DNA of 64,000 bases from Herbiconiux sp. SALV-R1 (GTDB lineage Bacteria; Actinomycetota; Actinomycetes; Actinomycetales; Microbacteriaceae), in the NCBI RefSeq assembly GCF_013113715.1, contig NZ_CP053344.1, forward strand, positions 3,038,001-3,102,000, in the 5' to 3' direction. Under the pieces are notes generated by a model. It had not been told where the DNA came from. It saw only the letters and a program-made list of their open reading frames with translations, and searched no databases. Positions within the stretch are counted from its first letter, which is position 1; each line of letters opens with the position of its first letter. Shown piece after piece: positions 26,158 to 41,824 of the stretch. The position numbers were made by a program, and so were the translations under genes.

Positions 26158-26991
26158 TCAGTGCCCGTCGGCGATCGCCGTGCGGAACTCCTTCGCGCCC
26201 CAGCGCACGCACTCCGCGATCTGCGCCTTGTGCTCGTCGGAGAGCCGGTAGTCGGGCGCGACGATGGTGAGCGCGCCCACGGTGATGCCGTTGGTCTGCA
26301 CGCTCGCCGCCGCCGCCCACACGCCGCGGTCGACCTCGCCCGCGCTCTCGGCGTAGCCGGTCTCGCGCAGCGGTTCGAGGTCGCGCTCGAGCTTCGTCTT
26401 GGCCTGCTTCGACAGCACGGGCCCGAGCCGGTTGAAGTACTGGGCGAGCTTCGGCGGGGGCAGCTCGCTGAGCAGCAGCTTGGCCGCCGCACCGCCGTAG
26501 AGCGGCATGAGCGTGCCTGGCTGGAACGAGATGGAGATCGGGTGGTCGCTCTCGGCCATGGCCAGACACACCGCCGAGTCGTTCACCCGTCGCAGGTACA
26601 GCGCCGTCTCACCGGTCTCCTCCGCCATGCGGTTGAGGATGGGCTGCACCTGACCCCGGAAGTCGATGGTCGTCTCGGCGGCCCTGGCGAGCCGGAAGAT
26701 CTGGGGCGAGAGCACGAAGCGCCCCTTTTCCCGCTCCTCGATGAGGTCGAGCTCACGCAGCAGCGAGATGTAGCGGTAGGCGCTCGGCACCGAGATGTCG
26801 TGCTTCTCGAGCACGTTGTCGACGGTGAGTTCCGGCGTGCTCTCGCTGAACTCCAGCAGGATCTGCAACGCCCGCCGGGCGCTGTCGACGCCTTTTGTGC
26901 GCTGCGCCTCGGCGGGTGCGGGCGCCGGCGCACCCATCTCGTCGAGACGACCCTCGTCGGCGTCGTCGATGTTCTCTGCGGCGTTCATCAT
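26158..26991 (-). CDS. IclR-family transcriptional regulator
   Basis: 277 residues. An N-terminal winged HTH (about 32-95; RALQILLEFSESTPELTVDNVLEKHDISVPSAYRYISLLRELDLI) is followed by the IclR effector domain (about 110-270) with ETGETALYLRRVNDSAVCLAMAES and VQTNGITVGALTIVAPDYRL. IclR regulators respond to small aromatic or carboxylic compounds. It is the last gene after the BMP-type importer (43-bp gap) and the only regulator gene in the B6 island, so it is the likely controller of importer and catabolic operons. The inducer, perhaps pyridoxine or 4-pyridoxate, is inference. Confidence 0.85.
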   Translation of the reverse strand: MMNAAENIDDADEGRLDEMGAPAPAPAEAQRTKGVDSARRALQILLEFSESTPELTVDNVLEKHDISVPSAYRYISLLRELDLIEEREKGRFVLSPQIFRLARAAETTIDFRGQVQPILNRMAEETGETALYLRRVNDSAVCLAMAESDHPISISFQPGTLMPLYGGAAAKLLLSELPPPKLAQYFNRLGPVLSKQAKTKLERDLEPLRETGYAESAGEVDRGVWAAAASVQTNGITVGALTIVAPDYRLSDEHKAQIAECVRWGAKEFRTAIADGH

Positions 26992-27034
26992 CGGCTCCGA
27001 TCGATCCTACCCGCGAGTTGCGCGACATCCGTCG

Positions 27035-27970
27035 TCATCGAGCACCGCGGGTGTACGGCGTGCCCAGGGCGGGCGGCACCACGGAACTCCGCGCGAAGAC
27101 GATGAGCATGAGGATGACGATGATGAACGGCAGCATCTTGATGATGTCGGCGGGCACGGTGAACCCGATCACCTGGAGCGCGGGGCCGATGGCTACGGCG
27201 AGACCGTAGACCAGCGAGGTGATCATGACGACGAGGATGCGCCCCCGCGACAGCATGGTGATGACGATGGCGATGAAGCCGAGACCGTTGGTGAGCATCG
27301 GGCTGAACGTCGCGGTCGTGATGAGCGACAGGTAGGCGCCGCCGAAGCCGACCAGCGCGCCGCTCAGCAGCACGGCGATCGAACGGGTGCGCATCACGCT
27401 GCCGCCCGCCGCGTCGAGCGACGACGGCTTCTGCCCCGCCGACCGGGTCGACAGCCCCCAGTTGGTGCGGGCCATGGCGAAGGCGAGGCCGAGGGCGACG
27501 ATGACGGCGATCCAGAAGATGCCGGTCTGGCCGAACAGCGACGGGCCGATCACGGGGATGTCGGAGAGCCCCGGGATGGCGAGCTTCGGCGCAGCGCCGA
27601 GGCTCGCCGGCGACTTGGTGTAGTTCTGCAGGTACAGGACGCTCGTGATGCCCTCGCCGATGAGCGTCACGGCGAGACCGATGACGATCTGGTTGAGGCC
27701 GAGCCACACGTTCAGCACCAGCATGGCGAGGTTGCCGACGATGCCGCCGACGATGCCGGCGAGCACGCCGACCCAGAAGCTGCCCGAGACCAGGGTGGCG
27801 ACGAAGGCGGAGTAGGCGCCGATGAGCATGACGCCCTCGATGCCGAGGTTGAGCACACCCGCCTGTTCGCCGATGGTCTCGCCGACCGCCGCGAGCATGA
27901 GCGGCATGGCCTGGGAGAGCACGGTGGCGATGAAGACCGTGACGAAGGCGGCCGTGAGCATGTCGCTCAT
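27035..27970 (-). CDS. BMP-type ABC importer permease 2 (NupQ-like)
   Basis: 311 residues, about 8-10 membrane segments, BPD_transp_2 family. It has the signature AAVGETIGEQAGVLNLGIEGVMLIGAYSAF characteristic of nucleoside/BMP-type second permeases. VGFGGAYLSLITTATFSPMLTNGLGFIAIVITMLSRGR and a short basic C-terminus follow. It pairs with the permease at 27967 (4-bp ATGA overlap) to form the channel of the importer. Confidence 0.9.
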   Translation of the reverse strand: MSDMLTAAFVTVFIATVLSQAMPLMLAAVGETIGEQAGVLNLGIEGVMLIGAYSAFVATLVSGSFWVGVLAGIVGGIVGNLAMLVLNVWLGLNQIVIGLAVTLIGEGITSVLYLQNYTKSPASLGAAPKLAIPGLSDIPVIGPSLFGQTGIFWIAVIVALGLAFAMARTNWGLSTRSAGQKPSSLDAAGGSVMRTRSIAVLLSGALVGFGGAYLSLITTATFSPMLTNGLGFIAIVITMLSRGRILVVMITSLVYGLAVAIGPALQVIGFTVPADIIKMLPFIIVILMLIVFARSSVVPPALGTPYTRGAR

Positions 27971-29133
27971 ACCGGGGTCCTTTCCGATGCGCTGCGGTTC
28001 TCGGTGCCCGAGGTGCCCGCCGAGGAGGAGGCCACCGAGGAGCCGAGGAAGGGCTTCAGCACCGTGCGGCGGAGCCCGGCCGGCACGTAGCTCTGCCCGA
28101 GCCGTCGCCGGTCGCCGATGTACTCGGTGATGGTCATGAACAGCAGGATGAGGCCGACGATCACGAGCAGGAAGTCGACGTTGAGCCCCGCCTGCTGGGC
28201 GGCGAGGGTGCCGCCGGTGGCCAGCACGGCGTAGAACGCCACGAACGGGATGGCCGCGACCGGCCGGAACCGGGCGAGGAACACCAGCGGCATGACGGCG
28301 TCGCCGTACCGCGGGTCCCAGTCGGCGCGCTGGTAGGTGAACTGGCCGAGGATGTCGATCGATCCGGCGAAGGCGATGAGCCCGCTCGACAGCGCGAACA
28401 GCAGGATGACCATCCAGGTCGAGTTGAGGCCCACGTGGCGGGCCGCCTTCGGGCTCGCCCCGAAGATGTCGACCCGCAGACCGAACGAGGTGCGGCTCAG
28501 CACGAACTGGGCGACGACGGCGAGCACGATCGCGATGACGAAGCCGATGTGGATCTGGGTGCCCGGGATGTAGGGCAGCAGCTCGTCATCGGGGATGACC
28601 GCGGTCTGCGGGGTGGTCACTCCGGGGTCTTTGAAGATGCCCTTGATGAGCAGGTTCACCACGCCCACCGCGATGAACGACATGACGAGCGAGGTGATGA
28701 TCTCGTTCGTGCCGTAGCGGGCTTTGAGAATGGCCGGGATGAGCGACCACACCGCCCCCGCGAGCACGGCCACGATGAACACGACGATGGTGGCGAGGAA
28801 GGCGGGCATGACGTCGAACAGGATGGGCCCGAGACCCGACGCGACGACGGCGCCGAGGAGGTACTGGCCGTTGTAGCCCAGGTTCCACAGCTGCCCGCGG
28901 AAGGCGACGATGAGGCCCACCGCCACGATCACGAGCGGCGCCATGAGCACGAGGCTGCGCTGCCAGTTGTTGCCGGTGATGCCGTACTTCCAGACGCCGG
29001 CGAAGAACTCGAGCGGGCTCGCGCCGATGGCCATCATCACGAAGGCCGACACGATGAGTGCGAGCAGCACGGGCACGACGGCCCTGATGAAGCCCTCCGC
29101 GAAGCGACGCGCGGCAGATGTCTCGGTGTTCAT
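27967..29133 (-). CDS. BMP-type ABC importer permease 1 (NupP-like)
   Basis: 388 residues. ATG 29133 overlaps the ATPase stop. It has about 9 hydrophobic segments. The family pattern AFRGQLWNLGYNGQYLLGAV and RYGTNEIITSLVMSFIAVGVVNLLI are visible, as is the coupling-helix region FGASPKAARHVGLN. It is the longer of the two BMP-system permeases. Ser/Thr/Glu-rich residues form the C-terminal tail. Confidence 0.9.
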   Translation of the reverse strand: MNTETSAARRFAEGFIRAVVPVLLALIVSAFVMMAIGASPLEFFAGVWKYGITGNNWQRSLVLMAPLVIVAVGLIVAFRGQLWNLGYNGQYLLGAVVASGLGPILFDVMPAFLATIVVFIVAVLAGAVWSLIPAILKARYGTNEIITSLVMSFIAVGVVNLLIKGIFKDPGVTTPQTAVIPDDELLPYIPGTQIHIGFVIAIVLAVVAQFVLSRTSFGLRVDIFGASPKAARHVGLNSTWMVILLFALSSGLIAFAGSIDILGQFTYQRADWDPRYGDAVMPLVFLARFRPVAAIPFVAFYAVLATGGTLAAQQAGLNVDFLLVIVGLILLFMTITEYIGDRRRLGQSYVPAGLRRTVLKPFLGSSVASSSAGTSGTENRSASERTPV

Positions 29134-30734
29134 TCGGTGCCCTCGATCGCTCCGGTCATGTAGTGGCCCACCTTCTCGGCCGTTCCCGGCCCGTCGTTCA
29201 CCACGCCGCCGACGAGGCGGCCGCGGGAGATGACCTCGATGCGGTGGGAGAGCTCGATGAGCTCGTCGAGGTCGGTGGACAGCAGCAGCACGCTGCCGCC
29301 CGACGCCGCGAAGTCGATGAGCAGCTCGCGCACGAGGTGCACGGTCTTGAGGTCGAGCCCGTAGGTGGGCTTGTTCACCACCACCAGCCGGGCGCCGTTC
29401 GTGAGCTCGCGGGCGAGCAGGATCTTCTGGATGTTGCCGCCCGAGAGCGTTCCCGCCCGGGTCGCCGGCGACGGGGTGCGGATGCCGTACTCGTCGATGA
29501 GACGGCGGGCCTCCACGTCGACGGCCTTGGGCTGGATGCGCCCCGCCTTCCAGAACGGGGCCTGGCCGATGCGCTTGATGACGAGGTTGAGCGCCACCGA
29601 CATGGAGCCGATGGTGCCCTCGTGCAGGCGGTCGTCGGTGACGTAGCGCACGCCCTGCTGCTGCCGGCTGCGCACGCCCGAGCGGGTGATGTCGGCACCG
29701 TCGAACAGCACGGTGCCCGACGAGGCGGGCCGTTGCCCGGCGACGAGTTCGGCGAGCGCCTGCTGGCCGTGCCCGTCGATGCCCGCGATGCCGAGGATCT
29801 CGCCCTCGTGCACGGTGAGCGAGACGTCTTCGGCCTCGACGTCGCGGCCGAGACCCTTGCTCGAGACCCCGCGCAGCTCGAGCCGCACGGGCCGTGCCGA
29901 GAAGTCGATCGACCGGGTCTCGCGGGTGGCCTCGGTGGCGCCGGCCAGGTCGGCGAGCTCGGCGGTGCTGGCCGACGAGGCGACCAGCTCGTCGCCGAAC
30001 ATGGCGGCGAGGATCGCATCCTGCGCCTGCTGCTCGGTGTACGAGGCAAGTTCGGCCTCGGAGATGTGGCCGACGTTGCGGCCGCCGCGCAGGATGGTGA
30101 CGCAGTCGCCCATGTCGTAGGCCTCGCGCAGCTTGTGGGTGATGAGCACGACGGCGAGGCCGTTGGCCTTGACCCGGTCGATGCTCTCGCCGAGGTGCTC
30201 GATGGCCTGGGGGGTGAGCATCGAGGTGGGCTCGTCGAGCACGAGCAGGCGGCTGCCCTTCCACATCGCCTTGGCGATCTCCACCTGCTGCTGCTGGCCG
30301 AGACCGAGGTCGGAGGTGAGGGCGTGCGGGTCGATGCGCACGCCGAGGAGCTCCGCGAGCTCTTCGAGCCGCTCGGTGGCCCGCTTCTTGTTCTGCATTG
30401 CGCCCGACTCGCCGAGCATGAGGTTCTCGAGCACCGTGAACGCGGGCACGAGCGTGGAGTGCTGGTGCACCACGCCGATGCCGTAGTCGACCGCCACCTT
30501 CGGCGAGGAGATGTCGACCGGCGCTCCGCCGATCGAGATGGTCCCCGAGTCGGGCTGCTGCATGCCGGCGAGGATGCTGATGAGCGTCGACTTGCCGGCT
30601 CCGTTCTCGCCGAGCAGGCAGTGCACCTGTCCGCCGACGATGTCGAGCGAGACGTCGTTGTTGGCGATCACCCCCGGGAAGGCCTTGGTGATGCCCCTCA
30701 GCGAGATGACCTCGCTCGTGGCCGTTGTCGTCAC
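29130..30734 (-). CDS. BMP-type ABC importer ATPase (two ABC modules)
   Basis: 534 residues. The first module has Walker A GENGAGKST, signature LGLGQQQQVEIAKAM and Walker B LLVLDEPTS. The second has the degenerate P-loop GIAGIDGHGQQALAEL and an altered Walker B (LVVVNKPTYGLD), with signature TLSGGNIQKILLAREL. This asymmetric pair is normal for NupO/BmpC-type ATPases. It drives uptake of the ligand captured by the lipoprotein at 30803. A hairpin at 30761-30788 separates the two genes. Confidence 0.9.
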   Translation of the reverse strand: MTTTATSEVISLRGITKAFPGVIANNDVSLDIVGGQVHCLLGENGAGKSTLISILAGMQQPDSGTISIGGAPVDISSPKVAVDYGIGVVHQHSTLVPAFTVLENLMLGESGAMQNKKRATERLEELAELLGVRIDPHALTSDLGLGQQQQVEIAKAMWKGSRLLVLDEPTSMLTPQAIEHLGESIDRVKANGLAVVLITHKLREAYDMGDCVTILRGGRNVGHISEAELASYTEQQAQDAILAAMFGDELVASSASTAELADLAGATEATRETRSIDFSARPVRLELRGVSSKGLGRDVEAEDVSLTVHEGEILGIAGIDGHGQQALAELVAGQRPASSGTVLFDGADITRSGVRSRQQQGVRYVTDDRLHEGTIGSMSVALNLVIKRIGQAPFWKAGRIQPKAVDVEARRLIDEYGIRTPSPATRAGTLSGGNIQKILLARELTNGARLVVVNKPTYGLDLKTVHLVRELLIDFAASGGSVLLLSTDLDELIELSHRIEVISRGRLVGGVVNDGPGTAEKVGHYMTGAIEGTE

Positions 30735-30760
30735 GGATGCTCCTTGTGTGTGGCGGGTGG

Positions 30761-30788: not shown

Positions 30789-30802
30789 GTCGAGGCGTCG
30801 GG

Positions 30803-31903
30803 TCAGTTGCCCTTGGCGGCGATGACCGCGGCGACCTCGTCGGCCGACGTGGCGATCGTGGGCGTGATGCTCCCATCGATGATGCCCTCGGAGGCCTTGT
30901 CGACGGCGGCCTTGATCTCCGGGGTCATGGCGTCGGTGTCCTGAAGGTACATGCCGCCGTTCTCCACGTCGACCGGGTAGGTCTTGGTGCCGAAGGTGCC
31001 GGCGTCGACGTCCTTGATGGCCTCGACGTAGGCGGGCTCGTAGTTCCAGCGCACCGAGGTGAGCAGCTTCGACGGGTCGCTGAGGCCCGGGGTGACGTCA
31101 CCGATGTCGGCGATGTACTTCACGTTCGACGCGGCGTCGATGGCCTGCAGGTAACCGTGGGTCGCTCCGTCGCCCATGCCGAACACGACGTCGGCGCCCG
31201 AGGCGATGATCTGCTCGGTCGCGACCTTGCCGCCGGCGGCGTCGGCGTAGGCCGCCGGGCCGACCGAGGTGTAGAGCACCTGGATGCTGGGGTCGACACT
31301 GTAGACGCCCTCGGCGAAGCCGGACGACATGGCGAACCAGTTCGCGTTGTCGGCCGAGACCACGATGCCGACCTTCTTCGAGGTGGTCGCCATGGCGGCG
31401 GCGATGCCCGCGAGGTAGCCGCCCTCCTGGCCCTCGGGCTTGGCGGCGGCGATCTGGCCGGGCACGTTCTCGTCTTCGCCGGCGTCCTGGATGAGGATCG
31501 GCACCTTCTTGGCGGCGGCGGTGGCCGCGGCACCCACGTTGTAGCCGGAGGCGTGGGCGACGATGAACTGCGCTCCCCCGTCGGCGACCTGGGTGAGGAC
31601 GGTCTCGATGTTGTCGTAGCCGGCGTCGGGGACGATGGTCACCTCGATGCCGAGTTCCTTCGCCGCCTCGTTGGCGGCCTCGATACCGGCCTGGTTGTAG
31701 CCGTAGTCCGACTCGTTCTCGGGGGCGACGAGGGCGAACTGCGTGACCTCGGTGCCTCCCGACGCGGTCGAGTCGTCGGTGGGGGCGTCGCCGCCGCGGC
31801 CTGAGGAGCAGGCGGCGAGGCTGAGCGCGAGTGCGCCGGAGACGGTGACGACGACCAGTCGCGACGCTGTGCGCCGCCGGCCACCGCTGGTGAGAATGTT
31901 CAT
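30803..31903 (-). CDS. BMP-family substrate-binding lipoprotein
   Basis: 366 residues. Signal peptide with lipobox LAAC (lipid Cys at about 32), then a Gly/Asp/Ser linker. The Bmp domain has FALVAPENESDYGYNQAGIEAANEAAKELG, IVAHASGYN, KVGIVVSADNANWFAMSSGFAEG and GADVVFGMGDGATHGYLQAID. BMP lipoproteins bind nucleosides, and the treponemal relative RfuA binds riboflavin, so vitamin ligands have precedent. Divergent from the B6 catabolic genes, it is a candidate pyridoxine or pyridoxal binder (inference). It is the first gene of the importer operon, with GAGAGGAAG as ribosome-binding site. Confidence 0.9.
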   Translation of the reverse strand: MNILTSGGRRRTASRLVVVTVSGALALSLAACSSGRGGDAPTDDSTASGGTEVTQFALVAPENESDYGYNQAGIEAANEAAKELGIEVTIVPDAGYDNIETVLTQVADGGAQFIVAHASGYNVGAAATAAAKKVPILIQDAGEDENVPGQIAAAKPEGQEGGYLAGIAAAMATTSKKVGIVVSADNANWFAMSSGFAEGVYSVDPSIQVLYTSVGPAAYADAAGGKVATEQIIASGADVVFGMGDGATHGYLQAIDAASNVKYIADIGDVTPGLSDPSKLLTSVRWNYEPAYVEAIKDVDAGTFGTKTYPVDVENGGMYLQDTDAMTPEIKAAVDKASEGIIDGSITPTIATSADEVAAVIAAKGN

Positions 31904-32001: not shown

Positions 32002-32077
32002 GCTTGCCAAGCCCGAAATCGAGTTGTTACTTGTCCGAAACACGCGGAGTCGACGATGACGCCAGGAGGTTCTGCCC

Positions 32078-32473
32078 GTGACATCACGCCCTTTCATCGC
32101 CCTTCTCGCCGTCTCCGTGCTGGCGCTCGCCGGCTGCTCGAGCGCTCCGGCGCTGACTGACGACGACGCCGCGGCCCTCGCCACGCTAGCGGAGGTGGCG
32201 GGCCCGACGTCGAACGTCGACCCCGCCACGATCACCCGCACCGAGTGCTGGCTGCCGTCGGAGCACCTCATCGACGACCCCTCGGTGAGCTCGACCACCT
32301 GGAAGGTGCTCTGCCGCACCCACTACGTCGACGACTCGGGCGACCGCTACCAGGACGCCACCTGCGTCGGCGACTTCGCCCTCACGCCCATGCTCGATCA
32401 CTGCTACCGCTGGGCGTTCTACACCGGCATGCCCCACTTCGAGGACTTCCCCGGCGTCGAGGCCGGCGGCTGA
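32078..32473 (+). CDS. Small secreted lipoprotein in the B6 island
   Basis: 131 residues. GTG 32078 has a strong AGGAGGT site 8 nt upstream. Signal peptide with lipobox LAGC (C20), then a globular domain with four further cysteines (ECWLP, LCRTH, TCVGD, HCYRW) that could form two disulfides. It is Trp/Tyr-rich and acidic. I do not recognise the family. It lies between the divergent importer operon and the lactonase promoter. A link with B6 uptake is only positional, and the lactonase has its own promoter downstream. Confidence 0.7.
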   Translation: MTSRPFIALLAVSVLALAGCSSAPALTDDDAAALATLAEVAGPTSNVDPATITRTECWLPSEHLIDDPSVSSTTWKVLCRTHYVDDSGDRYQDATCVGDFALTPMLDHCYRWAFYTGMPHFEDFPGVEAGG

Positions 32474-32584: not shown

Positions 32585-33355
32585 ATGACGGATCCGAAGG
32601 TGTATCTGCTCGACGGAGGAACTCTCGTCATCGACGAGTCCGACGTGCACTGGCACATCAACGCCGGCAACCCCGTGCGCTTCCCGGTGTACAGCGTGCT
32701 GATCGAGCATCCGGATGCGCTCATCCTGTTCGACACCGGTTTCGACCTCGACCACGTGAACCGGGTGCTCCCGTTCGAGCTGCCCGAGCAGACCGAGGAG
32801 CAGACCATCCCCGCCCAGCTGGCGAAGTGCGGCTTCACACCCGAAGACGTCGACATCGTGGTGAACTCGCACTTCCACTTCGACCACGTGGGCGGCAACA
32901 AGTACCTCACCAAGGCCACCACGCTCGTGCACAAGGAGGAGCTGCGGCACGCCAAGGTGCCCGAGCCCTTCGAGCGTCTCGGCTACTCCGACCTCTCGTT
33001 CGACCACGAGGGCGTGAGCTACACGCCCATCTCGGGCGACTACGAGATCGTGCCCGGTGTCTGGCTGTTCGAGACCCCGGGTCACACGATCGGCCATTAC
33101 TCGCTGCTCGTCGAGCTCGAGAACGATCGCAACATGCTGTTCTGCGGCGACGCCGCCTACACCCGCACCACTCTCGAGAAGGAGTGGATCGCCGGCTTCC
33201 ACCTCGACCCCACCAAGTCGGTCGAGGCGATCCGCCGCCTGAACTACCTCGCGCGCACGAAGGACGCCGACGTGTACCCCTCGCACGAGCTCGAGCCCTA
33301 CCTCACCTGGAAGCTCGCCCCCGCCTACTACGGCGGCGGCGAGGGCCAGGCCTGA
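32585..33355 (+). CDS. 4-pyridoxolactonase (MBL fold), vitamin B6 degradation
   Basis: 256 residues. The metallo-beta-lactamase-fold zinc motif is NSHFHFDH (H96, H98, D100, H101), with later ligands in TPGHTIGHYS and FCGDAAYT. From memory, the Mesorhizobium loti 4-pyridoxolactonase Mlr6805 shares KVYLLDGG, RFPVYSxLIEH, DxDHVxxVLPFE, VVNSHFHFDHxGGNKY and the FEHLGYSDLSF-like stretch (FERLGYSDLSF here). It opens 4-pyridoxolactone to 4-pyridoxic acid. AHL lactonases share the fold but not these segments. It is followed 49 bp later by pyridoxal 4-dehydrogenase, which makes its substrate. Confidence 0.9.
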   Translation: MTDPKVYLLDGGTLVIDESDVHWHINAGNPVRFPVYSVLIEHPDALILFDTGFDLDHVNRVLPFELPEQTEEQTIPAQLAKCGFTPEDVDIVVNSHFHFDHVGGNKYLTKATTLVHKEELRHAKVPEPFERLGYSDLSFDHEGVSYTPISGDYEIVPGVWLFETPGHTIGHYSLLVELENDRNMLFCGDAAYTRTTLEKEWIAGFHLDPTKSVEAIRRLNYLARTKDADVYPSHELEPYLTWKLAPAYYGGGEGQA

Positions 33356-33404: not shown

Positions 33405-34139
33405 ATGACCGACCAGACCCGACGGGTGGCCCTCGTCACCGGAGCAGCCCAGGGCATCGGAGCCGCGATCGCCGACGAGCTCGCCGGCGAGGGGATGACC
33501 GTGGTCGTCGCCGACGTGAACCTCGAGGGCGCGGAGGCCGTCGCCGCTCGCAACGGCGGGGTGGCGAAGAAGCTCGACGTGAGCGACCCGGAGCGGGTCT
33601 CCCAGGTCGTCGACGAGATCGTCGCCGAGTTCGGCCGCATCGACGTGCTCGTGAACAACGCGGCACTGGTGCCGCTCACCCCGTGGGCCGACATCACCTT
33701 CGAGGAATGGCGCAAGGTCATGTCGGTGAACCTCGACGGCCTCTACCTCGTCACCCACGCCGTGACGCCCGTGATGGGCAAGGCGGGCTACGGGCGCATC
33801 GTCAACATCGCCTCGAACACCTTCGTGGCCGGCACCCCCGACTGCGCCCACTACGTGGCGACGAAGGGCGCCTCCATCGGTCTCGTGCGCGCACTGGCCG
33901 GCGAGCTCGGCCGGCTCGGCATCACCATCAACGCCGTCGCCCCCGGCATCATCGCGAGCGAGGGCGTGCTCTCCGGCCCGCACCAGGCCGGCTTCGACTA
34001 CGTCGTTCCGATGCAGGCGTTCGACCGCCGGGGTCTCCCGCAAGACGTGGCGCCCGCCGTCGCCTTCCTCGCCAGCGAGAAGGCCGGCTGGGTGACCGGG
34101 CAGACCCTCGTGGTCGACGCCGGCCACACGCGCAACTGA
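33405..34139 (+). CDS. Pyridoxal 4-dehydrogenase (SDR family)
   Basis: 244 residues. ATG 33405 with AAGGAG. Classical SDR: cofactor motif TGAAQGIG (12-19), NNAALVP, catalytic S137, Y150 and K154. It strongly recalls the M. loti pyridoxal 4-dehydrogenase Mlr6807: NNAxxVPxxxW, ASNTFxAGTP, YVAxKGxxIG, NAVxPGxIxSxGV and ITGQTLxVDAG-like ends. It oxidises pyridoxal (as hemiacetal) to 4-pyridoxolactone with NAD+. It sits between the lactonase and the oxidase that supplies pyridoxal, so all three upper-pathway steps are in one operon. Confidence 0.9.
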   Translation: MTDQTRRVALVTGAAQGIGAAIADELAGEGMTVVVADVNLEGAEAVAARNGGVAKKLDVSDPERVSQVVDEIVAEFGRIDVLVNNAALVPLTPWADITFEEWRKVMSVNLDGLYLVTHAVTPVMGKAGYGRIVNIASNTFVAGTPDCAHYVATKGASIGLVRALAGELGRLGITINAVAPGIIASEGVLSGPHQAGFDYVVPMQAFDRRGLPQDVAPAVAFLASEKAGWVTGQTLVVDAGHTRN

Positions 34140-34146: not shown

Positions 34147-35688
34147 ATGGGTTCCGACGTCCTCATCATCGGCGCGGGCTCGGCCGGCAGCGTCGTCGCG
34201 CGTCGGCTGAGCGCCGACCCGTCCCGGCGCGTCACCGTGCTCGAGGCCGGCGAGCGTGTCACCGACCCCGAGATGCGACGGCCCGAGCTGTGGCCGTTCA
34301 TCCACCATCGCAGTTACGACTGGGACTACCGCACAACCCCGCAGAAGGGCCTCGCCGGGCGATCGCTCGACTGGGCCCGCGGCAAGGGCCCGGGCGGTTC
34401 GAGCCTGGTGCACGCCATGGCTCACATGCGCGGCTGCCGCGCCGACTTCGACCGCTGGGTCGTGCTCACCGGCGACGCCCGATGGGGGTGGGATGCGCTG
34501 CTCCCCGCCTTCACACGGTCGGAGACCTTCTCGGGTGGCGCCGATGCGGTGCACGGCGACGACGGGCCGCTCCCGGTGCTGCTGCCCGGCCCCGAGCTCT
34601 CCTCCCCGCTGGTGCAGGACTACCTGGCCGCCTGGGAGGCGCTCGGCGTGCCGCGCATCCCCGACCACAACGGCGGCGAGATGCTCGGGGCGACGCCCAA
34701 CTCGCTCACCATCCGCGACGGCGAGCGGGTCACGGTCTCCGACGTGTACCTCGACCCGGTGCTCGATCGCCCGAACCTCACACTGCTCACCGGTGTCGAC
34801 GTGCACCGGCTCCTCATCGGAGGAGGCCGTGTCACCGGCGTGGCCGTCACCCGCGACGGCGTCGACGAGGTGCTGGAGGCCGGCGAGGTCATCCTCTGCG
34901 GAGGCTCCATCGGCGACCCGCTGCTGCTCATGCGTTCGGGCATCGGAGACCCCGCGGTGCTGGCGGCGGCGGGCGTGAGCACCGTGCTCGAGTCGGCACA
35001 GGTGGGGAAGAACCTCCACGACCACCTGCTCGGGGCCGGCAACCTGTATGCCTCGCGCATCCCGGTGCCGCCGACCCGGCTGCAGCTGTCGGAGTCGATG
35101 ACCTACCAGTCGCGTCACGGCCTCGAGCAGAGCGCGGGAGCCGTCGACATCGTCGTGGGCTGCGTGGTCGGCCCCAGCGCCTCGGAGGCACTTGCCGATC
35201 AGGCCGCCGACGTGGTGCCCGGCGAGGGCTACACGCTGCTGTTCGGCGTGACCAACCCGACCAGCCGCGGCTCGCTCGCCATCTCGGGCCCGTCGCTCGC
35301 CGACGCCCCCGTGATCGACCCGAACTACCTCGACACCGAGCACGACCGCGCGATGTTCCGCCTCGCCCTGGAGCGGGCGCGCCTGGTGGGCGGCTCGGAG
35401 GGCCTCTCCGCCTGGCGCGACCACGAGGTGCTCCCGGGCACGGCGGTGCAGAGCGACGCCGAGGCCGACGCCTTCATCGCGCGCGCGGCCATCACCCACC
35501 ACCACCCGGTGGGCACGCTGAGCATGGGCTCCTCCGATGAGGCACCGGTGACCCCGGACCTGCGCTTCCGCGGGCTAGACAACCTCCACGTGGTCGACGC
35601 CTCGGTCATCCCCTCCATCACGGCGGGCCCGGTTCACGCCGCAACGATAGCGATCGCGGAGTCGTTCGCAGCGGAGTACACCCGCTGA
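34147..35688 (+). CDS. pno: Pyridoxine 4-oxidase (GMC flavoprotein)
   Basis: 513 residues. FAD motif GAGSAG (9-14), a GMC signature with KGPGGSSLVHAMAHMRG, and the C-terminal catalytic region ITHHHPVGT (449-457), then VVDASVIPSITAGPVHAA. Segments closely match the remembered M. loti pyridoxine 4-oxidase: YDWDYRT, RWGWDxLLP, HNxGEMxGxTPNSLxIRDG, NLxDHLLGAGNLYA, PTSRG. It oxidises pyridoxine to pyridoxal with O2. Pyridoxine 4-oxidase is also known from Microbacterium luteolum. It lies 7 bp after the dehydrogenase stop. A terminator follows at 35711. Confidence 0.9.
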   Translation: MGSDVLIIGAGSAGSVVARRLSADPSRRVTVLEAGERVTDPEMRRPELWPFIHHRSYDWDYRTTPQKGLAGRSLDWARGKGPGGSSLVHAMAHMRGCRADFDRWVVLTGDARWGWDALLPAFTRSETFSGGADAVHGDDGPLPVLLPGPELSSPLVQDYLAAWEALGVPRIPDHNGGEMLGATPNSLTIRDGERVTVSDVYLDPVLDRPNLTLLTGVDVHRLLIGGGRVTGVAVTRDGVDEVLEAGEVILCGGSIGDPLLLMRSGIGDPAVLAAAGVSTVLESAQVGKNLHDHLLGAGNLYASRIPVPPTRLQLSESMTYQSRHGLEQSAGAVDIVVGCVVGPSASEALADQAADVVPGEGYTLLFGVTNPTSRGSLAISGPSLADAPVIDPNYLDTEHDRAMFRLALERARLVGGSEGLSAWRDHEVLPGTAVQSDAEADAFIARAAITHHHPVGTLSMGSSDEAPVTPDLRFRGLDNLHVVDASVIPSITAGPVHAATIAIAESFAAEYTR

Positions 35689-35765: not shown

Positions 35766-36221
35766 TCAGCGGCTGAACAGACCCACGTAGCGCGCCTGCT
35801 CGATGATGTCGTCGGCGTAGCGGGTGAGGAACTCCTCGCGGGTGGGCTCGCCCTCCACCTTCGTGCCGAGCGCGTAGACGAAGAAGTAGTAGTGGTGCTC
35901 GCCGTGCCCGGCGGGCGGCTGCGGGCCGAAGTACGACGCGACGCCCGCGCCGTTCGGAGCCACGCGCACGCCCTCGGCCTCGAGGTCGAGCGTCTGGGCG
36001 TCGGGAGCGATGCCATAGACCACCCAGTGGGTGAAGCCCTGCGCGAGGGGCGCATCCGGGTCGTTCACGATGAGGGCGAGCTCGACGGTGCCCTCCGGCG
36101 CGCCGGTGAACTCCACGACGGGGGTCTTGTTGCCGCCGTCGGCGCTGAACTCCTCGGGGATGCGGCCGAGGTTGTTGAAGTCGGGGCTCGAGACAGCGAG
36201 CTTGTCGATGAACAGGGGCAT
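35766..36221 (-). CDS. YbhB/YbcL-type PEBP-family protein
   Basis: 151 residues. Phosphatidylethanolamine-binding-protein fold: DGGNKTPVVEFTGAP, ALIVNDPDAPLAQGFTHWVVYGI (the DPDAP ligand-site motif and HW), then GEHHYYFFVYAL. Bacterial members have no settled biochemical role. It is the last gene of the minus-strand B6 operon, 20 bp after the acetamidomethylene-succinate hydrolase, with ribosome-binding site AAAGGAAC. Members of this family do turn up in catabolic operons. It could bind a pathway intermediate, but this is speculative. Confidence 0.8.
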   Translation of the reverse strand: MPLFIDKLAVSSPDFNNLGRIPEEFSADGGNKTPVVEFTGAPEGTVELALIVNDPDAPLAQGFTHWVVYGIAPDAQTLDLEAEGVRVAPNGAGVASYFGPQPPAGHGEHHYYFFVYALGTKVEGEPTREEFLTRYADDIIEQARYVGLFSR

Positions 36222-36241
36222 GGTGTTCCTTTCGTTCGGCG

Positions 36242-37111
36242 TCAGAGGACGCGGGCGATCTCTGCCGCGACCAGGTCGGGCAGTTCTTCGGGGATGTAGT
36301 GGTCGGCACCCTCGACCTCGACCCAGCGGTCGCCGGGTCTGGCCTCACGCGCCGAGCGCCACGCGCTCTCGCTCACGATCTTGCTCGCATCTCCGCGCAG
36401 GTGCACCATCGGATGCGGAACACCCTGGAACTCCTCGGCGAACGGCGTGCGGAACCCGTCGATGAGCTGCGCCATGGCTTCGGCCGAGGCGAGGGGCTCC
36501 CAGGCCCCCTCGGCCACTTCGCGGTAGCCCCAGCGGGCGCGCCGCGACACGGCACCGGGCAGGATGCGCGGGTAGCGATCGGCAAGGTAGGCCTCGATCT
36601 CGGCGGGCCCGGTGAAGCGCCGGAAGCCCATGGCCACCCGCACGTCGAGCTCGTCGAGCACGGCGGCCTCGACGAAGGGCGTGTAGTCGACCACCACGGC
36701 GCGGGTCACCCGCTCGGGGTGGCGGGCGGCCGCCAGCCACGCGTTGCGGCCGCCGAGCGAGTGCCCGCCCACGACCGCCTGCTCGATGCCGAGGGCGTCG
36801 AGCACGGTCACGACGTCGGAGGCGAAGTCGTCGCCGCGATACCCGGTGGCGGGCTTGTCGCTGCGGCCGTGCCCGCGCTGGTCGAGCGCGATCACGGTGG
36901 CGCGCCCCTCGAGCAGGTCGCCCACGGGCTCCCACACGGCGTGGTTCGCCGAGGTGCCGTGCAGCAGCACCACCGCGGGGCCCTCGCCCCGCACCCGGAA
37001 CGCGATGTCGACATCGGCGCCCCGGGTGCGGCTGAGACCGTCGCCGATGCTCTCGACCGTCACCGGCGCCGGCGAGGTCGCCGGGCCGGTGTGCGAGACG
37101 GCGCCCGCCAT
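36242..37111 (-). CDS. 2-(Acetamidomethylene)succinate hydrolase (alpha/beta hydrolase)
   Basis: 289 residues. Alpha/beta-hydrolase fold with oxyanion segment LLHGTSANHAVW, nucleophile S118 (GGHSLGGRN), acid D142 (DYTPF) and His 271 (GADHYIPEE). It matches the remembered M. loti Mlr6787 enzyme in DQRGHGxSDKPxTGY, GHSLGxRN, EAYLAxRYPxI, PLASxxAMAQ and VRGxxSKxVS. It finishes the pathway by converting 2-(acetamidomethylene)succinate to succinate semialdehyde, acetate, ammonia and CO2. The start is ATG 37111, sharing a base with the previous stop (TGATG). Confidence 0.9.
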   Translation of the reverse strand: MAGAVSHTGPATSPAPVTVESIGDGLSRTRGADVDIAFRVRGEGPAVVLLHGTSANHAVWEPVGDLLEGRATVIALDQRGHGRSDKPATGYRGDDFASDVVTVLDALGIEQAVVGGHSLGGRNAWLAAARHPERVTRAVVVDYTPFVEAAVLDELDVRVAMGFRRFTGPAEIEAYLADRYPRILPGAVSRRARWGYREVAEGAWEPLASAEAMAQLIDGFRTPFAEEFQGVPHPMVHLRGDASKIVSESAWRSAREARPGDRWVEVEGADHYIPEELPDLVAAEIARVL

Positions 37112-38046
37112 CAGACGTTCGGGATGGAGGAGAGCGTCTTGCGGGCGGCGATGAGACCGGTGATGATCTCCTTGCGCTTGGCGTCGACGTCGCCCTCGCC
37201 GTACTCGTACATGCCGCCGTTCGACTTGAAGCCGAGCTTGCCCTCCGCGATCTTCTCCTTGATGAACTCGGGGGTGTCGGTGCTGTTGTCGAGGTCTTTG
37301 TTGAGGTAGCTCGAGACGGCCTGGTAGATGTCGAGCCCCGCCATGTCGAGCAGGCGCGTCGGGCCGATCACCGAGAGCTTGTAGCCGATGCCCCACTTCA
37401 CACAGGCGTCGAGGCCCTCGGGCGTGACGATGCCCTCTTCGAGCAGCGCCATGCACTCGCGGAGGATGGCGTAGAGCACGCGGTTCTCGACGAAGCCGGG
37501 GATCTCCTTCTCGAGCACGGGCACGTAGTTGAACGCCTTGACGATCTCGGTGAGCTTGCCGACGAGCGCCTCGTCGGTGGCCTTGCCGGGGATGATCTCG
37601 ATCATCGGGATGAGGTGCGGCGGGTTCGACCAGTGCATGCCGATGAGGCGGCCGGGCAGGGTCATCGACTCGGCCATGGTGCTGATCGGGATGCCGGAGG
37701 TGTTGCTGGCGATGATGACCTCGTCGCCGATGCGGGCCTCGAGGTCGGCGAGCACCTGCTGCTTGAGCTCGAGCTTCTCGGGCACGGCCTCGATGACGAG
37801 CTCGGTGCCCTCGAGGGCTGCGTCGAGGTCGGTGCCGAAGCTCACCGAGCCGCCGGGGGCCGACGGCGAGTCGACGGCCTCGAGCACGTTCTGCACGACG
37901 CCGTAGGCGGCCTCGGCACGCGCGATCGCGTCGTCGGAGATGTCGTAGAGACGGACGGTGGCGCCGGCGCGGGCCAGGGTCGCGGCGATGCCGGGGCCCA
38001 TGGTGCCCGAACCGATGACGGTGGCGATGGTGGGGAGACTGCTCAT
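37111..38046 (-). CDS. FHMPC 5-dehydrogenase (3-hydroxyacyl-CoA-dehydrogenase family)
   Basis: 311 residues. NAD-binding motif VIGSGTMGPG (about 10-19), the SNTSGIPI and H138-containing GMHWSNPPHLIPMIEIIPG segments, and a helical C-domain with VPGFVENRVLYAILREC-like (here IPGFVENRVLYAILREC) and KWGIGYKLSVIGPTRLLDMAGLDIYQAVSS. These agree with the remembered M. loti Mlr6793, which oxidises 5-formyl-3-hydroxy-2-methylpyridine-4-carboxylate to the 4,5-dicarboxylate. Genes for ordinary beta-oxidation would be expected beside thiolases, and none is present. It is coupled to the hydrolase downstream. Confidence 0.88.
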   Translation of the reverse strand: MSSLPTIATVIGSGTMGPGIAATLARAGATVRLYDISDDAIARAEAAYGVVQNVLEAVDSPSAPGGSVSFGTDLDAALEGTELVIEAVPEKLELKQQVLADLEARIGDEVIIASNTSGIPISTMAESMTLPGRLIGMHWSNPPHLIPMIEIIPGKATDEALVGKLTEIVKAFNYVPVLEKEIPGFVENRVLYAILRECMALLEEGIVTPEGLDACVKWGIGYKLSVIGPTRLLDMAGLDIYQAVSSYLNKDLDNSTDTPEFIKEKIAEGKLGFKSNGGMYEYGEGDVDAKRKEIITGLIAARKTLSSIPNV

Positions 38047-38097
38047 CTTCGTGCTCTCTTTCGCGGTACGTGGGTGGGGTCGATGGGGTCGGTGGGC

Positions 38098-38877
38098 TCA
38101 GATGCCCGGGGGCAGCGCGATCGGCGAGATACCGGTGCCGAAGGCGCCCTCGACACGGTCGAGTCGGCGGTTGAAGAAGGTCCAGAAGTTGTGCTGGGCC
38201 TTCGCCGGGTAGATGCGGTCGAACTTCTCCTTGGTCTCCTCCGCATCCGGTTCGATCGGGGCGAAACCGGAGGACTTGAGGTCGACCTGGAAGCGCGCGG
38301 CCTTCTCGAGGAAGATTCCCGTCAGGGTCACCTCGGCCACGGTGCTGCCGACGAAGGCCACGCCGTGGTTGGCCAGCAGGATCGCCTGCGCGTCGCCCAG
38401 GGCCTTCGCCGCGGCCACGCCGAGCGGAACCGTGGTGATGATGTGGCTGGTCTCGGCGAAGCGGGGCACGCCCTCGTAGGCGAACCACACGCCGTGGTTG
38501 TTGTAGGGCTTGAGCTCCTCCTCCGAGGCGCCGAGCACCGTCGAGTAGTGCGCGTGCGAGTGGCCCACGAAGTTCACGTCGGGGCGCGCCTTCATGATCT
38601 CGGCGTGCAGCGGCCACTCGAGGTGGCGGAGCCCGGTGCCCTCGAGCACGGTGCCGTCGAAGTCGATGAGGATGAAGTCGTCACCCTCCACCTCGCTGAG
38701 CGCGAGGTTGCCGCGCTTGAGCCACAGCCCGCGGCCGAACGGGTCGCGGAACGACAGGTGACCCATCGACATGTCGCCGTGGCCCTCGAGCTCGAGGATG
38801 CGGTGCGCTCGCGCCACGTCGGCGAGGATGCTCGCGATGGACTGGTCTTCGTAGTACTGGGTGTGCGAATAGCTCAT
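38098..38877 (-). CDS. 3-Hydroxy-2-methylpyridine-4,5-dicarboxylate 4-decarboxylase (class II aldolase family)
   Basis: 259 residues. Class II aldolase/adducin fold with metal ligands in GHSHAH (H106, H108, H110 region) and ANHG (H171), and an acidic residue in EWPLHAEIM. The N-terminal EGHGDMSMGHLSFRDP replaces the usual SxGNxS loop. The M. loti decarboxylase Mlr6791 belongs to this family and carries out the step between the dehydrogenase and the oxygenase encoded on either side here. Very strong ribosome-binding site (AGGAGGAGATC). Assignment rests on family plus context. Confidence 0.82.
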   Translation of the reverse strand: MSYSHTQYYEDQSIASILADVARAHRILELEGHGDMSMGHLSFRDPFGRGLWLKRGNLALSEVEGDDFILIDFDGTVLEGTGLRHLEWPLHAEIMKARPDVNFVGHSHAHYSTVLGASEEELKPYNNHGVWFAYEGVPRFAETSHIITTVPLGVAAAKALGDAQAILLANHGVAFVGSTVAEVTLTGIFLEKAARFQVDLKSSGFAPIEPDAEETKEKFDRIYPAKAQHNFWTFFNRRLDRVEGAFGTGISPIALPPGI

Positions 38878-38892
38878 GATCTCCTCCTGGGT

Positions 38893-39477
38893 CTACTGTG
38901 CGCCTGCGCGCACCTCGGCCACGGTCATGCCGCCGACGCGCGCGTTCACGCGCCCTCCGGTGGCGACGGCGGCGATGATGACGATCTCGTCGGGGCGGGG
39001 TGCGTCGGGAAGGGCGAGGGTGATGGCGTCGTAGTGCGACCTCACGTACACCTCGTCTTTGAACGCGAGCGGGATGTCGATGGTGGCGCCGGTCGGGGCG
39101 ACCTTGGTGGCCGAGGAGATCCAGGCCTCGCCGCCGCCGACGGCGTCGCGGAGCGCGTTGCCGAACACGGTGGTGACGCAAGCCACGATGTGCTCCTGCT
39201 CCCCGTTCACGCCCACCATGCCGCCCTTGCCGTAGCTCTCGACGGGCCGGCCGCCGAGCAGCGCCGCCGCGCGCTCGCCGAGCTCGGTGCCGAGCGAGGC
39301 GCTCGCGTCGGTGAGCGGCGACAGGTCGTCGACCCAGCGACCGGAGAACGGGTTCTCGAACACCACGGCGACCGCGGCCTTCACCAGGGGCTGCTCGGGT
39401 GCGGGGCCGAGCTCGTGCACGGTCTCCTGCACGAAGGAGTGCCAGGCGCGGACCTTGTAGATGGAGTCGATGCTCAT
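38893..39477 (-). CDS. Amino-acid-synthesis-family protein (DUF1185), unknown role in the B6 operon
   Basis: 194 residues. ATG 39477 overlaps the oxygenase TGA. Recognisable AA_synth/DUF1185 features are the N-terminal KVRAWHSFVQETVHELG, AVAVVFENPFSGRWVDDLSPL, the Gly-rich ESYGKGGMVGVNGEQEH and the end of the domain with PRPDEIVIIAAVATGGRVNARVGG. No biochemical function is established for the family to my knowledge. Its place between decarboxylase and oxygenase makes it a candidate accessory or missing-step protein of pyridine-ring catabolism (inference). Confidence 0.75.
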   Translation of the reverse strand: MSIDSIYKVRAWHSFVQETVHELGPAPEQPLVKAAVAVVFENPFSGRWVDDLSPLTDASASLGTELGERAAALLGGRPVESYGKGGMVGVNGEQEHIVACVTTVFGNALRDAVGGGEAWISSATKVAPTGATIDIPLAFKDEVYVRSHYDAITLALPDAPRPDEIVIIAAVATGGRVNARVGGMTVAEVRAGAQ

Positions 39478-40622
39478 GCTGCGTGTACCTCGTGTCGGTG
39501 GGGGTCGGTCGGATTGTAGAGGGCGGTCTCGACGCTCTCGCCCACGAACTGATTGCCCTTGGCCATCTCGCGGGTGTCGGCGTACCACTGCGACCGGTTC
39601 TGGGCCAGGTCGGTGACGGGGCGCTCGAGGCGCTCCCAGTCGCGCAGGGCGGTCGGCAGGTCGTCGCCCGCGGCGAGCGCCTCGGTGGCCTTGACGGCCA
39701 GGGTCCAGGCGTTCTGCATCGCGGTGCCCGCACCCTGCGCGAGCGCCGGGCACATGGCGTGCGCGGCGTCGCCGATGAGGGCCACCCGCCCCTCGGTCCA
39801 GTGGTCGAGCCGGGTGGTCTGGTAGCCGTAGTACCGGCCCTGGATGCCCGCCGCATCCTGCAGCACCGGTGCCAGTTGCGGGAACACCGAGGTCCACAGC
39901 TCGAGGTCGATCGGCACCCGCGAGCCTGCGGCGTCGGCGGCCGGTGACATGAGGGCGATGTAGAGCTCTTCGTCGTTCGCCGGGGTGTAGAGCACGCGCA
40001 GCACGCGAGGCTCGAGGTTCCAGAAGTCGATGACGTTGTCCCACTCGGTGTCGGGCTCGAGCGCCTGAAGCTCGGCCTTGCGCCGGGGCACGAGGAAGCG
40101 GGTGATGCCGTCGCGCGAGCGCTCGCGCTTCAGCGGGATGCCGAGCGAGTCGCGCACCGCCGAGCCGACGCCGTCGGCGCCGACCACGAGCTCGGCCTCG
40201 GCCGTGGAGCCGTCGGCGAAGCTCACGACACCCTCCGCCGTGGCGCCCGTGACCTCGGAGTCCGCGACGATCTCGACGCCCGACTCGCGCGCCGCGGTGA
40301 GCAGGCTCTGGTGCAGGTGCGGGCGCGTCATGGTGCGCCAGCGGATGCCGTCGAGCGTCTCCTGCGACTGGATGACGTTGTTCATGCGGGTCTCGTACGC
40401 GGGCGGGGTCATCGAGCGCGAGTCGAGGTCGGGAGTGGCCCCGATGCGGTCGAGCACCTGGAGGCTGTTGTTCCAGAGCACGATGCCCGCGCCCTCGGCC
40501 CGGAGCTCCGCTGCTCGCTCGTGAACCCGCACGCGCCACCCCATCTGGGCGAGGGCGGTGGCCGCGGTGAGTCCCGCGAAGCCTCCGCCCGAGATCTCGG
40601 CGCGGCGTGGGCTGTCGGTCAT
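39474..40622 (-). CDS. 3-Hydroxy-2-methylpyridine-5-carboxylate (MHPC) dioxygenase/monooxygenase, FAD
   Basis: 382 residues. Class A flavin hydroxylase fold: GGGFAGLTAA (12-21), the second FAD/NAD motif LVVGADGVGSAVRDSLG and GDAAHAMCPALAQGAG (284-299). It matches the remembered M. loti MHPC oxygenase Mlr6788 in RAExxGGGFAGLTAA, ELRAxGAGIxLW, WRxMTRxHLH, VPIDLExW and GDAAHAMCPALAQGAG. It opens the pyridine ring to 2-(acetamidomethylene)succinate with NADH and O2. The start is ATG 40622; a longer frame lacks a ribosome-binding site and fold sense. It is the key ring-cleavage enzyme of the island. Confidence 0.92.
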   Translation of the reverse strand: MTDSPRRAEISGGGFAGLTAATALAQMGWRVRVHERAAELRAEGAGIVLWNNSLQVLDRIGATPDLDSRSMTPPAYETRMNNVIQSQETLDGIRWRTMTRPHLHQSLLTAARESGVEIVADSEVTGATAEGVVSFADGSTAEAELVVGADGVGSAVRDSLGIPLKRERSRDGITRFLVPRRKAELQALEPDTEWDNVIDFWNLEPRVLRVLYTPANDEELYIALMSPAADAAGSRVPIDLELWTSVFPQLAPVLQDAAGIQGRYYGYQTTRLDHWTEGRVALIGDAAHAMCPALAQGAGTAMQNAWTLAVKATEALAAGDDLPTALRDWERLERPVTDLAQNRSQWYADTREMAKGNQFVGESVETALYNPTDPHRHEVHAA

Positions 40623-40687
40623 GAGCTGGTCCTGTCTGTTCTGTGCATGGCTGTACGTGGGGCCGTCGACGGTCTGCGAGCGGAGGC

Positions 40688-41824
40688 TCACAGATCGCGT
40701 GCGGCTCCGATCCTGAGAGCGGCGAGGCCGATCACCTCGGCGATGTCGAGCGCGTTGCGAGTGCCGGCGGGCCCCGCGAACTCCTCGCCGCCGGTGGGCG
40801 TGTGGTAGCGCCAGCCCTCCTCACGGCCGACGCCCACGATCGCGGCGCGCACCACCTGGGTGACGTTGCCGAAGTCGGTGGCGAAGCCGAGCGCCGGGGG
40901 GTCGGCGATGAAGTCGCGGCCGGCCGCCGCGAAGGCGTCGGCGACGAGGGCGGTGACGGCGGCATCGGGCCGCACCTCGGCGATCGCCGCCGAGCTCGAC
41001 CAGGTGCCCTCGCCGAACTGCCCTCTGAGCTCGGCGGCGAGGGCGTCGAGCTCCTGCTCGGTGTCGGCGAAGAGCAGGAAGCTCGCGTCGATCACCATGC
41101 CCGCCGACTCCTCGACGTCGCCGTCGAGGAGCACGGTCTCGACCATGAGGCGGGCGGGGTCGAAGGTGGAGGGGATGCGCGCGATGACGGCGAGGGCATC
41201 GAGCGGGCTGGAGACGACGTCGCGCTTGAGGGTGCGGATGCCGACGATGCGCACCGACTCCCGCCGCATCCAGAGCGACGACGGCCAGACGGTGTCGATG
41301 AACTCGGGGTGGGGGTAGAGGGCGACGTCGATGTCGTCCCACAGGCCGCGCGCGGCGCTCAGCGCCTTGCCGCTGCCGAGTTCGCGGGTGCGCGGGGAGT
41401 GAATCTCGTCGGCGGGGCAGCCGACGATCACGACGGTGCCGCTCAGCTCGTCGCGCACCGCGGCGAGGGCGAGCGCGGCGCCGATCACGCCGCCCGACTG
41501 GGCGCCGTGGCCGCAGGAGTGCACGGGAGCGACGTCACCCTCGGGGCTCTTCGCGGCGACGGCGTCGTACACGGCGACGACGCCGACGGTGGAGCCGGGC
41601 GCACCCCCGACGAGCTCGGCCCGGAAGGCGGTCGGCATGCCCGCGACACCGGTGGTGACGGAGTAACCCGCGTCGCGGAGACGGGCGACGAGGTGCTCGG
41701 AGCTCTCGACCTCTTCATGGGCGAGTTCGGGGTGGGCGGTGATGAACTCCACGATCGCGGCGACGTCTGCCGCCCGCTCGTCGAGAGCCGCCTTGAAGCG
41801 TTCGTCGACCTGCTCCGGTGCCAT
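40688..41824 (-). CDS. M20D-family amidohydrolase heading the lower B6 operon
   Basis: 378 residues. M20 peptidase of the aminoacylase/p-aminobenzoyl-glutamate-hydrolase type: HPELAHEEVESSEHL, PVHSCGHGAQSGGVIGAA (metal Cys/His) and VGCPADEIHSPRTRELGSGKA (Glu). The usual CGHxxH reads CGHGAQ, so one metal-ligand position is Gln instead of His or Asp. First gene after the promoter region 41825-41960, ribosome-binding site GGGGAGGACC. It could act on an amide in B6 metabolism (acylated or peptide-linked substrates) or on another compound. It is not a known member of the M. loti pathway. Confidence 0.75.
   Translation of the reverse strand: MAPEQVDERFKAALDERAADVAAIVEFITAHPELAHEEVESSEHLVARLRDAGYSVTTGVAGMPTAFRAELVGGAPGSTVGVVAVYDAVAAKSPEGDVAPVHSCGHGAQSGGVIGAALALAAVRDELSGTVVIVGCPADEIHSPRTRELGSGKALSAARGLWDDIDVALYPHPEFIDTVWPSSLWMRRESVRIVGIRTLKRDVVSSPLDALAVIARIPSTFDPARLMVETVLLDGDVEESAGMVIDASFLLFADTEQELDALAAELRGQFGEGTWSSSAAIAEVRPDAAVTALVADAFAAAGRDFIADPPALGFATDFGNVTQVVRAAIVGVGREEGWRYHTPTGGEEFAGPAGTRNALDIAEVIGLAALRIGAARDL

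Follow-up and report, generated by a model that had tools for sequence, protein, structure and literature searches.

A predicted vitamin B6 breakdown island in Herbiconiux, a probable variant of pathway I with no detectable PADH orthologue

Gene content of the island

The stretch of DNA analysed here, called the window, is 64,000 nt of the genome of the actinobacterium Herbiconiux sp. SALV-R1 (contig NZ_CP053344.1, positions 3,038,001 to 3,102,000). The genome is 4.52 Mb in two contigs and 99.92% complete. Judged by sequence, the window encodes a putative vitamin B6 importer, an IclR-family regulator and relatives of the pathway I enzymes of Mesorhizobium loti (Table 1). The island formed by these genes should allow vitamin B6 to be taken up and broken down for food.

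The initial annotation of the window had described a dedicated nutrient-use locus, split into two facing operons (upper and lower) and equipped with an importer and a regulator. This description was borne out. The two operons are convergent, with ends at 35688 and 35766, and the block recurs in relatives. A dedicated role in B6 uptake and breakdown appears well supported as the purpose of the island. The importer and the IclR regulator were as first described; the PF06684, PEBP-like and small lipoprotein genes had not been listed. The last of these sits between the importer and the upper operon.

From the M20 gene to the PEBP-like gene, the gaps were, in order, 62, -4, 15, 51, -1 and 20 bases. 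The AAMS (acetamidomethylene-succinate) hydrolase gene starts with an ATG that overlaps the stop codon of the FHMPC dehydrogenase gene by one base, and the protein is therefore not the 791-aa open reading frame (ORF). The window contained zero tRNA genes and zero Rfam matches. A search for an operator common to the upstream regions of the importer and the lower operon (19 and 18 regions) yielded no 16-mer at three mismatches or fewer.

Table 1. Genes of the predicted B6 island, with coordinates in the window
Product	Position	Strand	Basis
IclR-family regulator	26158..26991	-	Pfam IclR_C 70.1 bits; in 10/10 Microbacteriaceae stretches (20 kb); no NCBIfam model above cut-off
ABC importer permease 2	27035..27970	-	ORF; adjoins importer in relatives
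ABC importer permease 1	27967..29133	-	ORF and conservation
ABC importer ATPase	29130..30734	-	ORF and conservation
BMP-type substrate-binding lipoprotein, putative B6 importer	30803..31903	-	NF047927 447.6 bits (cut-off 400)
Small lipoprotein, start not settled	about 32075..32473	+	Relatives in 9/10 Microbacteriaceae stretches
4-Pyridoxolactonase	32585..33355	+	phmmer PDB 3aj3 E 9e-76; NF047925 431.8 bits (cut-off 325)
Pyridoxal 4-dehydrogenase, SDR type	33405..34139	+	phmmer PDB 3ndr E 1e-71; NF047923 385.3 bits (cut-off 325)
Pyridoxine 4-oxidase (PNOX, GMC)	34147..35688	+	phmmer PDB 4ha6 E 2e-166; PNOX clade
PEBP-like protein	35766..36221	-	PF01161 106.2 bits; in 40/43 MHPCO loci
AAMS hydrolase (alpha/beta hydrolase)	36242..37111	-	phmmer PDB 3kxp E 5e-59
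FHMPC dehydrogenase	37111..38046	-	phmmer PDB 4om8 E 2e-88, 48% identity; NF042925 388.1 bits (cut-off 500)
Class II aldolase-family protein, likely HMPDC decarboxylase by position	38098..38877	-	PDB matches; conserved residues
PF06684 (DUF1185, 'AA_synth') protein	38893..39477	-	Conserved with lower operon
MHPC oxygenase (MHPCO)	about 39474..40622, start possibly further up at 40691	-	phmmer PDB 3alj E 2e-119
M20 amidohydrolase, accessory	40688..41824	-	PF01546 39.7 bits; adjoins MHPCO in 5/10 Microbacteriaceae stretches

Enzyme identities and the proposed route

All seven enzyme ORFs named at the outset were present, and their phmmer matches in the Protein Data Bank (PDB) were far above chance. 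For six of them the best solved structure was the corresponding B6 enzyme from M. loti, as the annotation had it; the exception was the supposed HMPDC decarboxylase. Three island proteins (the lactonase, the SDR pyridoxal 4-dehydrogenase and the BMP importer protein) also passed curated NCBIfam B6 models.

Gene identities (from sequence), conservation and the lack of a detectable orthologue of 4-pyridoxic acid dehydrogenase (PADH) were obtained directly; every reaction given here is inferred. B6 vitamers would enter through the BMP-type ABC importer. Pyridoxine would be converted to pyridoxal by PNOX, then to 4-pyridoxolactone by the SDR dehydrogenase, and to 4-pyridoxate by the lactonase. The next two steps, from 4-pyridoxate to FHMPC and on to HMPDC, would both be carried out by FHMPC dehydrogenase acting as a four-electron NAD enzyme. 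HMPDC would be decarboxylated by the class II aldolase-family enzyme, as its position suggests. Ring opening by MHPC oxygenase, followed by AAMS hydrolase, would yield succinate semialdehyde, acetate, ammonia and CO2, and the PF06684 and PEBP-like proteins would serve this branch. With the succinate semialdehyde dehydrogenase model, whose cut-off is 646.35 bits, the best of the many aldehyde dehydrogenases in the source genome reached 569.7 bits.

PNOX, the SDR dehydrogenase, the lactonase, MHPC oxygenase and AAMS hydrolase are common to the island and to pathway I of M. loti MAFF303099 and Pseudomonas sp. MA-1, as FHMPC dehydrogenase probably is. PF06684 and PEBP genes are likewise found in M. 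loti-like loci. On the other hand, the island has no PADH, another aldolase replaces the Mlr6791 type, and the gene order is different. We interpreted it as a real B6 breakdown island that appears to be a variant of the known pathway. Another actinobacterium, Microbacterium luteolum, reportedly has pyridoxine 4-oxidase and a pyridoxal 4-dehydrogenase; the latter is said to be an aldo-keto reductase, whereas that of the island is of the SDR type.

One account (PMC3538738) calls B6 breakdown the best understood cofactor catabolic pathway, reports that all the M. loti pathway genes have been identified, and notes that Arthrobacter Cr-7 has a second pathway. It gives mlr6786 as the AAMS hydrolase gene (PMC3538738), where the initial list had implied Mlr6787. 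In the literature searched, which most subscription journals lay outside, no paper on a full pathway in actinobacteria was found, and nothing relevant on mlr6792 or FHMPC by name.

Conservation and the four kinds of loci

At E 1e-60, 12 of 149 genomes (counting the source) held MHPC oxygenase, as did 8 of 16 within the genus. At E 1e-75, FHMPC dehydrogenase turned up in 4 of 396 genomes drawn across the phylum, the source again being one of them. The trait is therefore rare. The relatives supplied twelve stretches, of which L021-L030 were full, L031 was short (4.7 kb) and L032 was a flank without matches. The importer, IclR, lactonase and pyridoxal dehydrogenase genes were kept in all ten full Microbacteriaceae stretches, together with those for MHPCO, PF06684, the aldolase, FHMPC dehydrogenase, AAMS hydrolase and PEBP. 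PNOX was kept in nine. The M20 gene was ruled out as a core gene or as the missing enzyme, since it lay beside MHPCO in just five.

Named genome contigs were then scanned with the FHMPC dehydrogenase alignment. The best 80 of 262 relatives were used, and the counts thus describe the loci nearest the window, not the family at large. Adding the window and L030 brought the set to 82 loci. ORF calling was mechanical, and hidden Markov models served to score families over all 9276 ORFs.

The loci fell into four kinds, with two on short contigs (L061 and L063) not assigned. Kind I (7 loci, mostly alphaproteobacteria) has MHPCO and the Mlr6791-type aldolase. Kind II (36 loci, including the window) has MHPCO and the other aldolase, and is actinobacterial wherever the record is named beyond 'bacterium'. 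Kind III (27 loci, proteobacteria) has a gentisate dioxygenase-like cupin and no MHPCO. Kind IV (10 loci, actinobacteria) has a molybdenum hydroxylase and, in nine, a luciferase-like monooxygenase, again with no MHPCO. One locus, from a record titled as a Bifidobacterium breve metagenome-assembled genome (MAG; L107), has an FHMPC dehydrogenase that groups with that of the Ilumatobacteraceae locus L108, and is probably a mislabelled bin.

MHPCO relatives of less than 60% identity occurred in 12 plasmid records, and two of the five inspected adjoin quinolone dioxygenase genes. An MHPCO relative alone is therefore no marker of B6 breakdown.

The missing PADH

The seven enzymes had been read together as a route from pyridoxine to succinate semialdehyde. 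This reading left a gap, as the step from 4-pyridoxate to FHMPC had no recognised enzyme and the source genome no detectable PADH orthologue. For a tree of GMC proteins, 61 pieces were collected from the loci, and seven shorter than 340 aa were removed. Once M. loti PNOX and two GMC proteins from elsewhere in the source genome had joined the remaining 54, the tree had 57 rows. The PADH clade (14 rows, support 100) was entirely from Pseudomonadota. In six kind I loci, a gene of this clade lies directly before that of FHMPC dehydrogenase, which we take to be the position of mlr6792. M. loti PNOX fell in the PNOX clade (41 rows, support 98), as did every one of the 20 actinobacterial rows from the loci. 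The two source-genome paralogues fell outside both clades, on long branches.

Genomes were also searched with the PADH of Rhizobium RU20A. Those reached through the loci came with completeness not given, and some are small MAGs. Twenty of the 34 proteobacterial loci were covered (2 of kind I and 18 of kind III), and ten of these genomes held a PADH orthologue at 65-81% match. The next full-length matches reached 48%; one 191-residue piece at 52% came from a genome already holding PADH. None of the 32 actinobacterial genomes showed an orthologue, the best match being 43% in 11 of them and 46% in the other 21 (14 of kind II and 7 of kind IV). In the source genome, there was no PADH-clade protein at the locus, and the best matches in the whole genome were 36-39%. 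The absence of PADH from an otherwise known route suggests that another enzyme does two jobs.

PNOX is unlikely to be that enzyme. It was found in 19 of the 36 kind II loci, and three loci (L030, L056 and L067) keep the lactonase, the pyridoxal dehydrogenase and the lower genes with no PNOX at the locus. The L030 genome has one GMC gene elsewhere, absent from the tree set. Five PNOX-less loci (L030, L056, L059, L061 and L067) carry a zinc alcohol dehydrogenase, a VOC protein and a pyridoxamine-pyruvate transaminase-like protein. This zinc alcohol dehydrogenase could serve in pyridoxal formation.

Loci with the lower genes only

Among the kind II loci, 28 span 20 kb or more. Eight of these (L057, L058, L060, L064, L065, L066, L084 and L088) held the lower genes with none for the upper enzymes, lactonase and pyridoxal dehydrogenase included. 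By automatic gene calls, an ABC ATPase of one family was present in all eight, a binding protein in six, a permease in five and an IclR gene in seven. The importer differs from that of the window; the one binding protein tested, from L060, was NMT1/THI5-like. The same importer families also adjoin a PADH-clade gene in L068, L092 and L112. In the genomes of these lower-only loci, the lactonase search gave one weak relative (34%). No pyridoxal dehydrogenase was found in them at E 1e-50, by a search without a positive control whose empty answer carries no weight.

FHMPC dehydrogenase was the sole NAD dehydrogenase in the conserved gene set of these loci. The simplest reading would be that 4-pyridoxate is imported, perhaps by this ABC importer, and that the one conserved NAD dehydrogenase performs both oxidations.

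The sites aligned to S116, H137, E149 and N188 of M. loti FHMPC dehydrogenase, which we take to be catalytic, were invariant in the 81 typed rows. A residue switch was considered at the position aligned to M. loti 217, where Lys predominates in actinobacteria and Ser in proteobacteria. It was rejected, because PADH-less proteobacteria also have Ser as a rule, and the position thus tracks the phylum.

Weighing of the PADH-less route

We judged it probable, by a fair margin short of certainty, that the island is a variant of pathway I found in actinobacteria, with FHMPC dehydrogenase carrying out both oxidations of 4-pyridoxate. Such a double role is plausible for the enzyme. The M. loti FHMPC dehydrogenase is presumably a dismutase and can turn FHMPC into 4-pyridoxate. 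Several points weigh against the double role. M. loti-type bacteria retain PADH despite having this enzyme, and no residue distinguished the FHMPC dehydrogenases of PADH-less genomes from those of PADH-bearing ones. The window protein itself scored under its NCBIfam cut-off. PADH was also missing from 10 of the 20 proteobacterial genomes, several of which are MAGs of uncertain completeness. These genomes furthermore encode other alcohol dehydrogenases and distant GMC proteins (up to 46%), any of which may be responsible.

A different explanation is that the pathway is complete and an unlinked, unrelated alcohol dehydrogenase or a distant GMC enzyme converts 4-pyridoxate to FHMPC. Each genome has other candidates. 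The source genome encodes two further GMC proteins, and the zinc alcohol dehydrogenase lies in some PNOX-less loci. However, this zinc enzyme was found in only 5 of the 36 kind II loci, and the lower-only loci of kind II keep the same few genes across families. We regarded this explanation as possible and clearly the less probable of the two.

The aldolase and the conserved small proteins

The product of the aldolase gene had been annotated as an HMPDC decarboxylase of the Mlr6791 type. Its best matches instead lay in another aldolase subfamily, the kind of result that the initial annotation had named as refuting it. In phmmer searches of the PDB, other class II aldolases came first (8iqa, E 3e-22) and Mlr6791 (2z7b) fifth at E 4e-15. 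The protein was about 31% identical to Mlr6791-type proteins. A kind I aldolase matches Mlr6791 at E 5.5e-121, far beyond the window protein. On these comparisons, the protein is not an orthologue of Mlr6791. Its gene position makes it the likely HMPDC decarboxylase nevertheless, and E87, H106, H108 and H171 are common to it and the Mlr6791-type clade.

The low identity and the order of the matches would also fit a different decarboxylase for HMPDC, with the PF06684 and PEBP-like proteins as candidates. We considered this improbable. The aldolase was present in 36 of 36 kind II and 9 of 10 kind IV loci with the four residues retained, and in kind I loci the two small proteins stand alongside an Mlr6791-type protein, which argues that they are no substitute for it.

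Among the loci holding MHPCO, those of the M. loti type included, PF06684 was found in 43 of 43 and the PEBP-like protein in 40. Both genes are core members of the ring-opening loci. The PF06684 protein of the island scored above the Pfam gathering threshold and has the same fold as BB2672 (3byq) and SPO0826 (2qtp), members of the same family (DUF1185). These two are without a known role, whereas the island gene goes with B6 ring opening. For PF06684/DUF1185 proteins, PMC2954203 suggests amino-acid metabolism. A relation of PF06684 to Rid (YjgF) proteins, weighed by fold similarity against unrelated folds, is no more than possible.

Other putative lower routes

In kind III (L068:6535-10903 and 26 other proteobacterial loci), the FHMPC dehydrogenase gene adjoins that of a gentisate 1,2-dioxygenase-like cupin in 27 of 27. 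An LVIVD protein was present in all 27, RidA and GST in 21 each, and there was no MHPCO, AAMS hydrolase or aldolase. Four proteins of L068 passed their NCBIfam cut-offs: the lactonase, the pyridoxal dehydrogenase, the importer protein and the pyridoxamine-pyruvate transaminase. The cupin scored 221 bits, below the gentisate model cut-off of 442, with 2d40 as its best PDB match. HMPDC has a salicylate-like OH/COOH pair, and the cupin might therefore cleave the ring directly, with no decarboxylation step. This would be a possible new lower route. Four kind III loci (L081, L083, L093 and L095) had no upper B6 genes in the locus.

In kind IV (L075:8-9920 and nine other actinobacterial loci), FHMPC dehydrogenase occurs with the molybdenum hydroxylase in 10 of 10. 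The luciferase-like monooxygenase, a cupin, the aldolase, the lactonase and the pyridoxal dehydrogenase were each present in nine. The lactonase and dehydrogenase of L075 passed NCBIfam, and its importer protein fell just under (394.4 bits, cut-off 400). Perhaps another ring-opening route operates here.

B6 supply of the host

PdxS was absent from the source genome in a search that was positive in 10 of 14 control genomes. PdxJ was absent from it and from all 18 genomes searched (positive in 4 of 14 controls). With neither of these two enzymes found, the source strain may need B6. It is predicted to be a B6 auxotroph, and may require the very vitamin it degrades.

Within Herbiconiux, PdxS was missing from 4 of 8 island carriers (G000, G001, G005 and G014) and from 0 of 7 others, with G007 outside the search. 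The difference had a p of about 0.05, calculated by hand with kinship ignored. The four carriers did not form one clade on the island-protein tree. Over all 39 genomes, 5 of 24 carriers were without PdxS, against 1 of 15 others.

These absences could mean that the importer mainly supplies cofactor B6 to an auxotroph, with the breakdown enzymes as an overflow. There is little to recommend this, however, as half of the Herbiconiux carriers kept PdxS, the p value is as qualified above, the difference over all 39 genomes is that of 5 in 24 against 1 in 15, and breakdown genes outnumber importer genes. Uptake and breakdown for food is the reading we retained.

Discussion

The loci appear to show an actinobacterial version of B6 breakdown in which one known enzyme is missing and another is replaced. 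If one dehydrogenase does take 4-pyridoxate to the dicarboxylate, pathway I as drawn would be incomplete and partly replaceable. A broader proposal, which we put forward tentatively, is that this NAD dehydrogenase makes PADH a proteobacterial add-on, that the PF06684 and PEBP-like proteins are obligatory for ring opening in both phyla, for example in ammonia release from the enamine left after AAMS hydrolysis, and that the host is auxotrophic for B6.

For PF06684, a family with solved structures, the loci offer a testable context. The source strain may be a B6 auxotroph that also uses the vitamin as food. 4-Pyridoxate is the form in which animals excrete B6, and the loci point to bacteria that may live on it.

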